This document shows positions 3,938 to 26,014 of a stretch of DNA of 31,885 nt, piece by piece (the stretch's first letter is position 1; every line of letters starts with the position of its first letter). The position numbers and the translations under genes are program-made. Location: positions 1 to 31,885 of IMG/VR virus record IMGVR_UViG_3300027522_000018; one strand, written 5' to 3'. Under the pieces are notes generated by a model. It made no database searches and was not told where the DNA came from. It saw only the letters and a program-made list of their open reading frames with translations. Source of the stretch: a virus.

Positions 3938-4406
3938 ACAACTACCAACAGAATTAAAAAGACAGAGGGGAACTCTTCGAGCGGATAGACAAAATCCAGC
4001 AGAACCGATTCTGCCTAGCTCTATTCCACCTACTCCGACTTGGTTGTCCGAGCAAGGACAGAAGAGTTTCATTGAGTTAAGCCACATTTTACACGACATG
4101 ACTGTGTTGACTCTAGCCGACTCTATGGCACTCGAAATGCTTTGCGACTCATACAGCGAGTATAAGGCAGCCAAAGAAGTAATCAATACTCTAGGGTCAA
4201 CTGATATAGTTATGTCACGAGAGGGCAACCCAAAGACCGTCATTCGACCAGAGGTACAGATAGCTAACCAAGCTTTCGTTAGAGTCTTTCAATTACTAAA
4301 AGAATTTGGTCTAACTCCATCGAGTCGAGCGAAGGTAAATGCAATCGAAGGATATGCGACTACACCAGACATTAAAATAGAAAATTTCTTTAACAATGAC
4401 GAGTAA
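3930..4406 (+). CDS. terS: phage terminase small subunit, P27 family
   Basis: TerS recognises the phage DNA and hands it to the large terminase subunit for packaging. The protein shows P27-type features: a basic N-terminus (PTELKRQRGTLRADRQNP), a Pro-rich bridge, the helical block LADSMALEMLCDSYSEYKAA, and near the end GLTPSSRAKVNAIEG. I chose the ATG at 3930 over the in-frame one at 3897 because P27 proteins usually begin close to this basic segment and a GGAAAAAAG stretch precedes it. Its end overlaps the following methyltransferase by 11 bases. Confidence 0.88.
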   Translation: MTKQLPTELKRQRGTLRADRQNPAEPILPSSIPPTPTWLSEQGQKSFIELSHILHDMTVLTLADSMALEMLCDSYSEYKAAKEVINTLGSTDIVMSREGNPKTVIRPEVQIANQAFVRVFQLLKEFGLTPSSRAKVNAIEGYATTPDIKIENFFNNDE

Positions 4407-5025
4407 AATAACCAACGAATGCAACATGGAGCTAATGGCTAGGTATAAAGATAATCACTTTGACTTGGCTATTGTAGACCCGCCTTATGGGATTGGAGCA
4501 AACAAAGAAAAAGAGCATAACGGGTGGAAAAGTTACGGTGTAAAAGAATGGGATAATGAAATACCAAAAAAAGAATATTTTGACGAACTAAAAAGAGTAA
4601 GTAAAAATCAAATAGTTTGGGGGGGGAATTATATGACTGAATTTTTACCGCCAAAAATGTGCTGGTTATTATGGGATAAAGGGCAAAGAGATTTTAGTTT
4701 AGCTGATGGAGAATTAGCGTGGACAAGTTTTGATAAGGCAATGAGAATTTTTGAAATGCCAAGAGCCACAGCAATGAAAGACGCAAAAGATAACGGTGGA
4801 AAAATACACGCAACTCAAAAGCCAGTCAAACTTTACGAATGGATTTTAATGAACTACGCAAAGCAAGGCGACAAAATACTAGACACACATCTAGGCTCTG
4901 GCTCAATAGCTTTAGCTTGCCATAATTTAGGGTTTGACTTAACTGCTTGCGAATTAGATAAAGAATATTTCGATGCAAGTCAGAAGCGACTAAAAGAGCA
5001 CACAGCTCAACTTAGAATACTATAA
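4396..5025 (+). CDS. orphan DNA methyltransferase inserted between terS and terL
   Basis: This 209-residue AdoMet-dependent enzyme has DPPYGIG at residues 28-34, WGGNYM and HATQKP in the middle, and the AdoMet-binding motif LDTHLGSGSIALA near residues 161-173. The order is catalytic-before-binding, as in small phage adenine-N6 or cytosine-N4 methyltransferases. It overlaps TerS by 11 bases and is followed five bases later by TerL. Being made with the packaging motor suggests that it marks DNA late, perhaps in concatemers about to be packaged; that link is inferred from position only. No restriction partner is present. It is not a close copy of the methyltransferase at 925-1695. Confidence 0.9.
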   Translation: MTSKITNECNMELMARYKDNHFDLAIVDPPYGIGANKEKEHNGWKSYGVKEWDNEIPKKEYFDELKRVSKNQIVWGGNYMTEFLPPKMCWLLWDKGQRDFSLADGELAWTSFDKAMRIFEMPRATAMKDAKDNGGKIHATQKPVKLYEWILMNYAKQGDKILDTHLGSGSIALACHNLGFDLTACELDKEYFDASQKRLKEHTAQLRIL

Positions 5026-23305: not shown

Positions 23306-23580
23306 TCTGTGAGTGAAGTATCTGTAAAACCATAATCTTCTAAACATTCTTCACATAATGATTCATAACCAATATAAAACCCTCCGTTATCTATAGTATC
23401 GGAAAGTGTATCTAAATCCCATAAAGGTGATTTACAACATTCACTTACTTTATCTGTTTTATTAAATCCTGTTTTTTTTAACCAATCCAAAAAATCATCT
23501 TCGGTCATATCTAACGTATTATTTAGTTCTATATTCATCCTCTCTAGCAATTCAATAGCATCCACTTTATCTTTACTCAT
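23302..23580 (-). CDS. zinc-ribbon-like protein (92 aa)
   Basis: The C-terminal half has VSECCKSPLWDLDTLSDTID and YESLCEECLEDYGF, two cysteine pairs (CC and CEEC) that could hold one zinc ion. The N-terminal half is acidic and helical. Many phages have such proteins, which often bind nucleic acid or partners. The start overlaps the end of the previous gene by eight bases. It is flanked on both sides by related gene ends, which suggests insertion by recombination. Confidence 0.6.
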   Translation of the reverse strand: MSKDKVDAIELLERMNIELNNTLDMTEDDFLDWLKKTGFNKTDKVSECCKSPLWDLDTLSDTIDNGGFYIGYESLCEECLEDYGFTDTSLTD

Positions 23581-23923
23581 CCTCTTTTAGTTTAGTTAAT
23601 ATATTCAACTCGTGCTTCAGTTCTATAACCGCACTAGCCATATCCATCTCGTTCGCTTGTGCTAACAGAACCTCTCGCTTATATTGCATCATCGTAAAGT
23701 AAACATAGGTAAAAGCGACCGAACTCTCCTCGAATACATCTAATCGCTTCTTTAACTTATCTGCTTGTGGGTGGTCTGAATACGAAACGTACTGCTCTCG
23801 CATCGTAGCTAATTCCTTCTGGTGACTTAAAAACTTATCCATACTGTTCATCTCGTCCAGGTTCGGGTCGGCATCTCTTAGTAATTGAATCGCTTTGGTT
23901 GTAATGTTGTCGTTTGTTTTCAT
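23573..23923 (-). CDS. hypothetical helical protein (116 aa)
   Basis: This protein is almost entirely helical and charged (LSHQKELATMREQYVSYSDH, ADKLKKRLDVFEESSVAF, then AVIELKHELNILTKL), probably a coiled-coil bundle. No known family is recognised. It starts four bases after the ABC-GNAT gene and may be made with it. A diverged copy of its last 16 codons lies at 23258-23305. Confidence 0.6.
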   Translation of the reverse strand: MKTNDNITTKAIQLLRDADPNLDEMNSMDKFLSHQKELATMREQYVSYSDHPQADKLKKRLDVFEESSVAFTYVYFTMMQYKREVLLAQANEMDMASAVIELKHELNILTKLKEDE

Positions 23924-23927
23924 ATAT

Positions 23928-25076
23928 CTAAAATAAACTTAAATTCTTTTTGTCTCTCATTTCTTTGATTGGTAAAAGTAAATCCTCATAACCACTTATT
24001 CCTTCACCAATGTACTCGTGGCAATAAGACTTTCTCGTTAATAAGTTTTGAAACTTATCATTATCACCTTTTATATCCTTTCTAAACTGACCATTCTTAG
24101 ATGTACCTATCCAGTATTTAGATTTATTAAAGTATTCACCTAACGCTGGGTTTACTGTTTTAATAAAAACCCTTCCATTGCCTTGCTTTATAATACCCCC
24201 TAAAAACTCGCATATTTTAGAGCCTATCCCCATACCTTGATAATCTGGGATTACAACGACTCTACTTATTGCAAATCCATTTTTTATAGTTCCGCTTGGT
24301 TGGTTTTTATAAATTACAATTCCAATAGGTTTATTATTCCATTCAAAAACAAGATGACCAAATCCTTTATTCCTTTCATTTGTTAAATAATGATGCTCTT
24401 TAAAGAAGTCCCAAGTACTAGATTCTGTTCTATAAACTTGTAGTTCAATTTTAGGCTTTCCTTGCCGAAGCCATTGCCCTCTTTCAAGCGACCCCCCTTT
24501 TTGCGGTGAACAAGTCCAATCAGGCATTAACCATTCCATTATATCGTAGTGGCAACTAGCAAGTACAATCCTTTTTTTGTTTTTTCTAATGTATTTTTGC
24601 AAAGCAAAACTCATTGCTTTAGCTACATCTCTATCCACAACCGAAGTGTATTCGTCAACCAATATAACTTCACTATCTTTTGCTTTACCAACCTTGTACG
24701 CTAATTCGGCTCTGTATTGCTCTCCGTTACTAAGTAGGTGAAATGGTCTCAACCAAGTAGGTACAGAACTCAAACCCATACTAGTAAGTAGAAAAGTTGC
24801 TTCTTTAGGTGTTAACCAATCGAAATTACTTATTAAGGGTTTATTGTGGTCAAACTCACATTTACTTAATTTACCTAAATCTTTAAGTATGGTTGTTTTA
24901 CCACTCCCACTACTACCATAGACAACCCCTATATTCCAATCAAACGACTTAGTTTCACTTAAACTATAAGTTATACTTACACTAGTTTCGTTGTTGTCTT
25001 GTATATCAAATGAATCATAAATATACTTAGTGTACTCATCGTTCAGTATCTTGCTTGTTAATTTAATTTCTGCCAT
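23928..25076 (-). CDS. ABC-type ATPase fused to GNAT acetyltransferase (Mom-like?)
   Basis: This 382-residue protein joins two enzymes. The N-terminal part has Walker A GSSGSGKT (54-61), an ABC signature LSNGEQYR (115-122), Walker B VILVDE (137-142), a D-loop-like VVDRD, and a switch His (SCH176). The C-terminal part is a GNAT domain: HHYLT (228-232), then VFEWNNKPIGIVIY and the acetyl-CoA-binding motif RVVVIPDYQGMGIGSKI (272-288). No membrane segment is present, so it is not a transporter subunit. Mu Mom, a GNAT-fold DNA-modifying enzyme, also has an HY motif at this place. It lies between helicase and small genes in the replication block, so DNA modification coupled to ATP is plausible but inferred. 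Confidence 0.85.
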   Translation of the reverse strand: MAEIKLTSKILNDEYTKYIYDSFDIQDNNETSVSITYSLSETKSFDWNIGVVYGSSGSGKTTILKDLGKLSKCEFDHNKPLISNFDWLTPKEATFLLTSMGLSSVPTWLRPFHLLSNGEQYRAELAYKVGKAKDSEVILVDEYTSVVDRDVAKAMSFALQKYIRKNKKRIVLASCHYDIMEWLMPDWTCSPQKGGSLERGQWLRQGKPKIELQVYRTESSTWDFFKEHHYLTNERNKGFGHLVFEWNNKPIGIVIYKNQPSGTIKNGFAISRVVVIPDYQGMGIGSKICEFLGGIIKQGNGRVFIKTVNPALGEYFNKSKYWIGTSKNGQFRKDIKGDNDKFQNLLTRKSYCHEYIGEGISGYEDLLLPIKEMRDKKNLSLF

Positions 25077-25081
25077 AGGTT

Positions 25082-26014
25082 CTAAAATATACCGTTAGTT
25101 TTAGTTTTATTATCCACCTCTTGAATCGGGTCAATTTGACTTCCATTCTCGTTAAGGAATTGGAATCTTCTCTTGTTATACGAATAGAACAATCCGATTG
25201 GACTTTGTTCGGGTGTAGGTACTCCGACTAATTTCTGAAACTTTACCTTCTGAATATGTATCTCAGTTAAGTTCCAATTTTCACTTTGAGGGTTTCTATG
25301 GAATACTATAAAGTTATCCGCCCTATTTCCAAACATAGCACCATACTCTACATCGCTCATATTCGGAGCAGGTCGAGAACCATCGTCATTTCTTCTTCGG
25401 TTCGCTGCCGTACCAGGATGTACTACTAAATAGAACGCTACCTTATTCTTCTTAATAAATCTTCTTATGTTAGATAAAGCATCGTAATAGTACTCGTACT
25501 TAGATTGCTTCTCTGCTGACTTCAAATCGTTAAGTGGGTCTATTGATACACCATCTATATGAACGACTTGCATATAGTCTTGAAACGCTTCCAACACCTC
25601 TTCTACAGTTGGAGTTTCATCGAACGTAAGAACGGTAAAGTGTTCGTAAGCCCAATTGATAGCAGTAAGGTACTCGTCTTGATTTACTCTGTTGTGAAAG
25701 TCTTTATCGGCTGTGTTACCGCAGAACATCTCAGCTATATCAATCATTAAATCACCTACTGGCTCGTTCTCAGGGCAATACATTAACCATTTCCAACCGT
25801 ACAGCTTAGATGCCATTATCATTAAAAAGAGTTGAGATGTGGTTTTACCTATATTAGCAAACCCAGTCATAATAGTAAGCTCTCCTTTTCTGAACGTGTA
25901 ATGTGGGTCAAGTGGAGTTATTCCTGTAGATAACCCTTTAGTGTAACCTTTAGAATATATCTTTTTACAATAATCGTTAACCTCTTGTTTTGAAGTAATC
26001 CTATATAAAGCCAT
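25082..26014 (-). CDS. RecA/DnaB-fold replicative helicase-like ATPase
   Basis: The 310 residues make up one RecA-type motor domain. Walker A is GFANIGKT (51-58), Walker B is in VHIDGVSIDPLNDL near 155-165, and a sensor His lies in FYLVVHPGT. The start FRKGELTIMTG is typical of DnaB/Twinkle-type helicases. The N-terminal primase-binding domain of DnaB is missing, as in many phage helicases that load through a partner. It follows the likely replisome organiser by four bases, and the pair should open the phage origin. Confidence 0.82.
   Translation of the reverse strand: MALYRITSKQEVNDYCKKIYSKGYTKGLSTGITPLDPHYTFRKGELTIMTGFANIGKTTSQLFLMIMASKLYGWKWLMYCPENEPVGDLMIDIAEMFCGNTADKDFHNRVNQDEYLTAINWAYEHFTVLTFDETPTVEEVLEAFQDYMQVVHIDGVSIDPLNDLKSAEKQSKYEYYYDALSNIRRFIKKNKVAFYLVVHPGTAANRRRNDDGSRPAPNMSDVEYGAMFGNRADNFIVFHRNPQSENWNLTEIHIQKVKFQKLVGVPTPEQSPIGLFYSYNKRRFQFLNENGSQIDPIQEVDNKTKTNGIF

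Follow-up and report, generated by a model that had tools for sequence, protein, structure and literature searches.

The 31,885-nucleotide viral sequence analyzed here (the window) encodes, on its minus strand, a protein in which an ABC-type ATPase is fused to a GNAT acetyltransferase domain, which raises the question of what substrate such an enzyme might act upon. An earlier note on this DNA suggested an ATP-driven modifier of phage DNA or of a replication protein, acting with the two methyltransferases of the same genome. In the analysis described below, this gene of a marine-type phage probably has the predicted role of decorating phage DNA and thereby shielding it from bacterial defences, because related phages carry known DNA-modifying enzymes at the same gene positions.

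Domain Architecture of the ABC-GNAT Protein

The protein is encoded by a single ATG-initiated frame in the ORF list of the window (382 aa, stop included), and the coordinates and strand given for it earlier proved exact (Table 1). PHROG 11143 matches its whole length, and a Pfam scan detects Acetyltransf_1 at residues 222-292 as well as ABC_tran (5.5e-4), the latter under the curated cut-off. The AlphaFold2 model, built with the family alignment as input, is that of a soluble two-domain protein, in agreement with the earlier description of a protein lacking a membrane part.

The ABC motif set and the acetyl-CoA motif that had been noticed in the sequence are both present and conserved among 117 non-redundant homologues. 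The Walker A motif (G54-x-S-G-x-G-K60-T/S in the family), signature, Walker B, D-loop (D148-R149 in the window protein) and switch histidine H176 are invariant or highly conserved; the Q-loop glutamine shows no conservation across the same 117 sequences. In the GNAT domain, the acetyl-CoA motif reads D278-Y-Q-G-M-G-I-G285 in the window protein, and its Q and G positions are conserved in at least 94% of the homologues. After the switch histidine motif comes a conserved W182-x-x-P-D-W187 segment, each tryptophan of which is present in 116 of the 117. Two hallmarks of the family are this CHYDxxEWLxPDW stretch and, at the beginning of the GNAT fold, the HHYL motif, in which H229 and Y230 are candidate catalytic or base-contacting residues.

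Table 1. Features of the ABC-GNAT gene and its borders in the window
Feature	Coordinates	Strand	Evidence
ABC ATPase-GNAT fusion protein, 382 aa	23928..25076	-	ORF; phrog_11143 3.2e-128; AF2 pLDDT 92.3, pTM 0.85
ABC ATPase domain, residues 1-204	24465..25076	-	VIA-align Z up to 14.4 vs ABC cassettes
Walker A GSSGSGKT, residues 54-61	24894..24917	-	G54, S56, G57, G59, K60 invariant in 117 homologues
ABC signature LSNGE, residues 115-119	24720..24734	-	L, S, G invariant; E 110/117
Walker B VILVDE, residues 137-142	24651..24668	-	D141, E142 invariant
Switch histidine motif C175-H176-Y-D178	24543..24554	-	C175, H176, D178 invariant in 117 homologues
GNAT acetyltransferase domain, residues 210-358	24003..24449	-	PF00583 6.3e-8; VIA-align Z 14.7 vs 1y9k; domain-only model pLDDT 89
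HHYL motif, residues 228-231	24384..24395	-	H229 and Y230 invariant in 117 homologues
Acetyl-CoA-binding QGMGIG, residues 280-285	24222..24239	-	Q 116/117, G281 117/117, G283 110/117, G285 114/117
DnaB/AAA_25-like helicase, upstream slot border	25082..26014	-	PF13481 1.9e-7; DnaB_C 4.9e-4
116-aa protein, downstream slot border	23573..23923	-	no Pfam or PHROG match

Several familiar classes of ABC protein do not describe this architecture. The compact soluble model contains no membrane domain of an ABC transporter, and the families listed by Pfam for the neighbouring genes do not include a permease. An SMC/Rad50-type protein was rejected, as the long coiled coil is absent and only ~55 residues separate the Walker A motif from the signature. 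A PADLOC defence system was likewise rejected: no full-length match was found, the best being partial (mad3, 1.5e-7 over 59 residues), and the matches are ABC-type.

A Cargo Slot Shared with DNA Methyltransferases

In the window, the ABC-GNAT gene directly follows the DnaB/AAA_25-like helicase gene within a replication/recombination block, as had been proposed, and precedes the gene for the 116-aa protein. Of 49 loci that encode a related helicase, 45 have the 116-aa gene downstream of it. The expectation that the fusion would always reside in a replication module does not hold in other branches of the family, whose members lie beside terminase genes or at the Mu right end.

A survey of 47 viral contigs that carry this helicase yielded 43 distinct helicase-to-116-aa slots, counts that are not phylogenetically independent because the contigs are related. 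Sixteen slots are empty (a gap of 5 nt or less between the bordering genes), 9 contain small or uncalled ORFs, 2 (the window and L007) hold ABC-GNAT, and 16 accommodate one other large gene. Based on Pfam and PHROGs scans of group representatives, 15 of these 16 cargoes are DNA methyltransferases, belonging to the C5 (PF00145; 7, plus 1 divergent), phrog_757 (6) and N6/N4 (PF01555; 1) types, and the other is a lone GNAT (L436). Of 126 large ORFs located elsewhere on these contigs, 7 are methyltransferase-like; 3 of the 7 also lie directly after the helicase, which leaves ~4/126. The L406 contig, with a helicase 99% identical to that of the window and 84-87% DNA identity on both flanks, has an empty slot from which ABC-GNAT is cleanly missing, and in L419 a Mom homologue is encoded one gene further along. 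Several unrelated kinds of enzyme occupy this one position, which is a natural trap for further DNA-modifying genes. A 280-285 aa protein with MKTVNSLSGGKSSSYIALNYP close to its N-terminus, which is presumably similar to PAPS-reductase/PP-loop enzymes, is encoded near the slot in L415, L416, L426 and L447.

It could be that the slot is instead a general counter-defence site and that ABC-GNAT counters restriction or another defence without modifying DNA, as the lone GNAT in L436 and the small ORFs in other slots might indicate. However, the preponderance of DNA-modifying enzymes among the other large cargoes, together with com-mom and ParB-Mom interchanges that are specific to DNA modification (see below), makes this reading very unlikely.

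The slot survey also bears on the proposed cooperation with the two methyltransferases of the window genome, a partnership that was rejected: just 5 of the 32 related records encode a PF01555 methylase scoring above the cut-off, and methyltransferases are alternatives to ABC-GNAT at the window locus. Elsewhere in the window, an ORF resembling N6/N4 methyltransferases (209 aa, 4396-5025, plus strand) lies between the likely small- and large-subunit terminase genes.

Interchange with Mom in Mu-like and Arthrobacter Phages

The ABC-GNAT gene of Pseudomonas phage Komp_PAO1_1 resides after the tail-fibre genes and behind a gene for a Com zinc ribbon (PF10122, 9e-21), the position taken by mom in Mu, and at the corresponding position in Pseudomonas phage GEC_PNG14 com is followed by mom. 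A Com-type zinc ribbon is encoded upstream (~290 nt; within 900 nt) in 68 of 80 viral contigs with Komp-like proteins, near-duplicates included, versus 2 of 1500 random stretches, according to a regular-expression test in which the random stretches were unmatched for base composition. Downstream, a formyltransferase gene is present in 53 of the 57 Mu-like contigs with enough sequence on that side. In Mu-like prophages, an operon of com, a ~50-aa adaptor, ABC-GNAT and formyltransferase replaces com-mom (L049:5614-7661, L325-L404). As for Com control in the window, the com-mom operon is absent and the gene upstream is the helicase.

Arthrobacter phages provide a further setting. The gene order in phages Sonny and Wyborn is ParB-(orf)-Mom, then HTH-sliding clamp, and that in phage EastWest is ParB-ABC-GNAT-(2 orfs), then HTH-clamp. 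The flanking proteins of EastWest and Sonny/Wyborn are 54-67% identical on the ParB side (gp69, gp73 and ParB) and 32-88% on the other. ParB-Mom and ParB-ABC-GNAT interchange in these syntenic phages.

Three independent settings thus show ABC-GNAT interchanging with established DNA-modifying enzymes, namely Mom and DNA methyltransferases. The assignment of a role class rests on this genomic interchange, which shows a shared class of role and not the same reaction; it is considerably stronger evidence for the predicted DNA-modification family, of which the window protein is a member, than is domain content alone. The part of the earlier proposal that concerned a DNA modifier is supported by these exchanges, while kinship with the Mom family is not (see below).

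Putative ParB-like Partners and an Adaptor Outside the Window Clade

In most other branches of the family, ABC-GNAT begins within or directly next to a ParB-like gene. The ParBs encoded there carry a small C-terminal domain (VIVxCxxExxQ...LxxxGYxCxV); ParBs linked to Mom have a zinc ribbon at the C-terminal end in its place. In Mu-like phages, the small domain stands by itself as an ORF of 43-49 aa (L049:5786-5935, L052:5756-5884), a form that, judged from sequence, suggests a dedicated adaptor. Of 201 loci searched with an HMM, 84 have this domain just upstream of ABC-GNAT; among the 57 non-redundant genome loci, the number is 49.

The window belongs to a set of 22 rows in a 67-row tree (SH-aLRT 99), and none of these 22 has a ParB or adaptor upstream. 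A partner hidden elsewhere in the genomes of this clade was considered and rejected: ParB or adaptor was found anywhere in 1 of 32 records, many of the others of which may be fragments, and is absent from the 234-kb record of Tenacibaculum phage pT24. Phages of the window clade thus appear to use ABC-GNAT alone.

Family Distribution and Earlier Prediction

Homologues number in the hundreds and are found in viral contigs and prophage-like loci from many phyla, with 28-72% identity among those aligned; such a distribution is far beyond chance, and the fusion constitutes a widespread viral family, phrog_11143. Copies on genome contigs are probably prophages, and a chromosomal host function for them was rejected, because a terminase cluster lies nearby at 38 genome loci. 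Members also occur in isolates with laboratory hosts, including Lactococcus P335, Leptospira biflexa LE3/LE4, Arthrobacter EastWest and Pseudomonas Komp_PAO1_1. Among small isolates, the one nearest to the window protein is Nonlabens phage P12024S (55%).

The neighbourhoods are varied. At one locus (L010:9149-9721), ABC-GNAT is followed by a second GNAT domain that is encoded on its own and is 51% identical to the first, and in Gordonia phage Jace (L044:7101-7526) the downstream gene encodes aspartate 1-decarboxylase (PF02261, 2e-33), a CoA-precursor enzyme. Aeromonas phage PX29 (GU396103.1) encodes both a Mom homologue and ABC-GNAT, and the presence of one therefore does not preclude the other.

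The core idea of a DNA-modifying ABC-GNAT protein is already published as a prediction, to which the interchange context is a new addition. Phage pT24 is the named example of an earlier identified pairing of GNAT and ABC ATPase that was predicted to carry out an uncharacterized acyl modification of a DNA base (Iyer et al. 2021, PMC7824862); as restated there, the prediction originates with Iyer et al. (2013). The pT24 homologue is the best-scoring match to the window protein among phage records (57% identity over 99%) and the sole matching place in the pT24 record. It is annotated as two ORFs (L040:6001-7173), yet tblastn gives a single continuous 378-residue match across them, which suggests either a stop codon inside the gene or an error in sequencing. 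In the literature searched, which did not extend to the 2013 paper itself, no experimental test of the prediction was found, and no measured modified base was reported for any phage with an ABC-GNAT gene. Given how common the family is, and given its members among phages of laboratory hosts, the prediction, which dates from 2013, is directly testable by nucleoside mass spectrometry.

Fold Relationships of the GNAT Domain

The best fold matches of the GNAT domain are protein N-acetyltransferases (RimI, Naa50 and Ard1; 8-18% identity), with RimI (5isv) as the top Foldseek match. The earlier note had named a close match to ribosomal-protein acetyltransferases as evidence against DNA modification; the likeness to RimI exists at the level of the fold only (TM 0.54, 13% identity). 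These matches are consistent with acetylation of a protein such as host RNA polymerase or a replication protein, in the manner of phiKMV Rac, in which case the ABC part would have a regulatory role, and jumbo-phage GNATs have been predicted to act like Rac (PMC7824862). However, similarity of this degree is generic for GNATs, whose folds do not settle their substrates, so the RimI match cannot tell substrates apart, and both the methyltransferase/Mom interchange and the linkage to ParB and Com point to DNA. Protein acetylation is accordingly regarded as unlikely.

Proposed Mechanism of DNA Modification

Taken together, it is likely that the window protein is an ATP-dependent, DNA-directed acyltransferase belonging to a phage self-modification system that acts against restriction. 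Soluble ABC ATPases of DNA repair grip or distort DNA. Conceivably, the ABC part of the window protein dimerizes on ATP and does likewise with phage DNA, and the dimer would then present a base to the GNAT pocket. There, acyl-CoA would supply the group, perhaps with the help of H229-Y230 in its transfer, and an acetyl or other acyl moiety could be placed on the exocyclic amine of adenine or cytosine, which would protect the DNA from cleavage by host restriction enzymes. For most members of the family, the partner would be a ParB-like protein that carries the C-terminal adaptor, or the adaptor alone, possibly with a function in DNA targeting.

A more tentative proposal, for which the chances seem slightly short of even, is that an ATP-powered base acyltransferase evolved independently of Mom, that the Mu-like operon produces a new and possibly two-step (acylated and formylated) base, and that in the window clade one protein suffices. 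To our knowledge, no characterized enzyme has ATP-powered DNA base acyltransferase activity. If the family does modify DNA, hypermodification in phages would proceed by at least two GNAT routes that lack detectable sequence kinship, one of which uses ATP.

Comparison with Known Systems

Like the window protein, the RNA N4-acetylcytidine synthases TmcA and NAT10 have their GNAT domain after a P-loop NTPase, and the acetyl-CoA motifs are similar; they act on nucleic acid, as is proposed for the window protein. Foldseek aligns TmcA (2zpa) over 421-432 columns, long enough for both domains (E 1.5e-6), and the GNAT domain profile weakly matches RNA cytidine acetyltransferase over the acetyl-CoA motif (E 0.018), as would be expected if the protein acetylated RNA, for example a tRNA cytidine. 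However, the helicase part of TmcA is of the RecD type and not an ABC ATPase; its Pfam domains (RecD-type helicase and tRNA-binding part) have no match in the window protein, which has the ABC signature LSNGE instead, and the genomic contexts of ABC-GNAT are those of DNA modification. RNA acetylation is consequently most improbable.

The GNAT-EVE systems with ASCH, in which a prophage GNAT with ASCH and ATPase neighbours is proposed to acetylate a DNA base (PMC7641849), differ in having an EVE reader domain and an AAA_17 ATPase; the ATPase of the window protein is instead of the ABC type and fused to the GNAT. An ASCH gene also comes next after ABC-GNAT in 6 of 111 loci, and ASCH proteins are encoded at +1/+2 in some loci. 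A route to N4-acetylcytosine through YqfB-type ASCH neighbours was rejected: these proteins have Glu (GxKxFExR) in place of the catalytic Thr24 of YqfB (PMC6972931) and are therefore not YqfB-type amidohydrolases, but may be readers. The system predicted by Iyer et al., as restated in PMC7824862, has the same domain pair, represented by the pT24 homologue, and the window copy differs from the latter in being one intact frame.

Mom, the methylcarbamoylase of phage Mu (PDB 8bv8), resembles the window protein in belonging to the GNAT superfamily and in a role in phage DNA modification, which is predicted for the latter; among Mu-like phages and among Arthrobacter phages, Mom and ABC-GNAT share gene positions. 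Mom differs in lacking an ATPase domain and in having different conserved residues. Membership of the window protein in the Mom family was rejected: the profile match is insignificant (hhalign probability 1.5%, E 0.034, 46 columns), and the canonical QxxGxG is present instead of the residues of Mom. Structure 8bv8 is not among the 50 matches listed for the GNAT model, and the Mom homologue LP65 orf128 appears at rank 28 of the viral library matches. The best explanation is that the window protein works like Mom, yet stands outside the Mom family.
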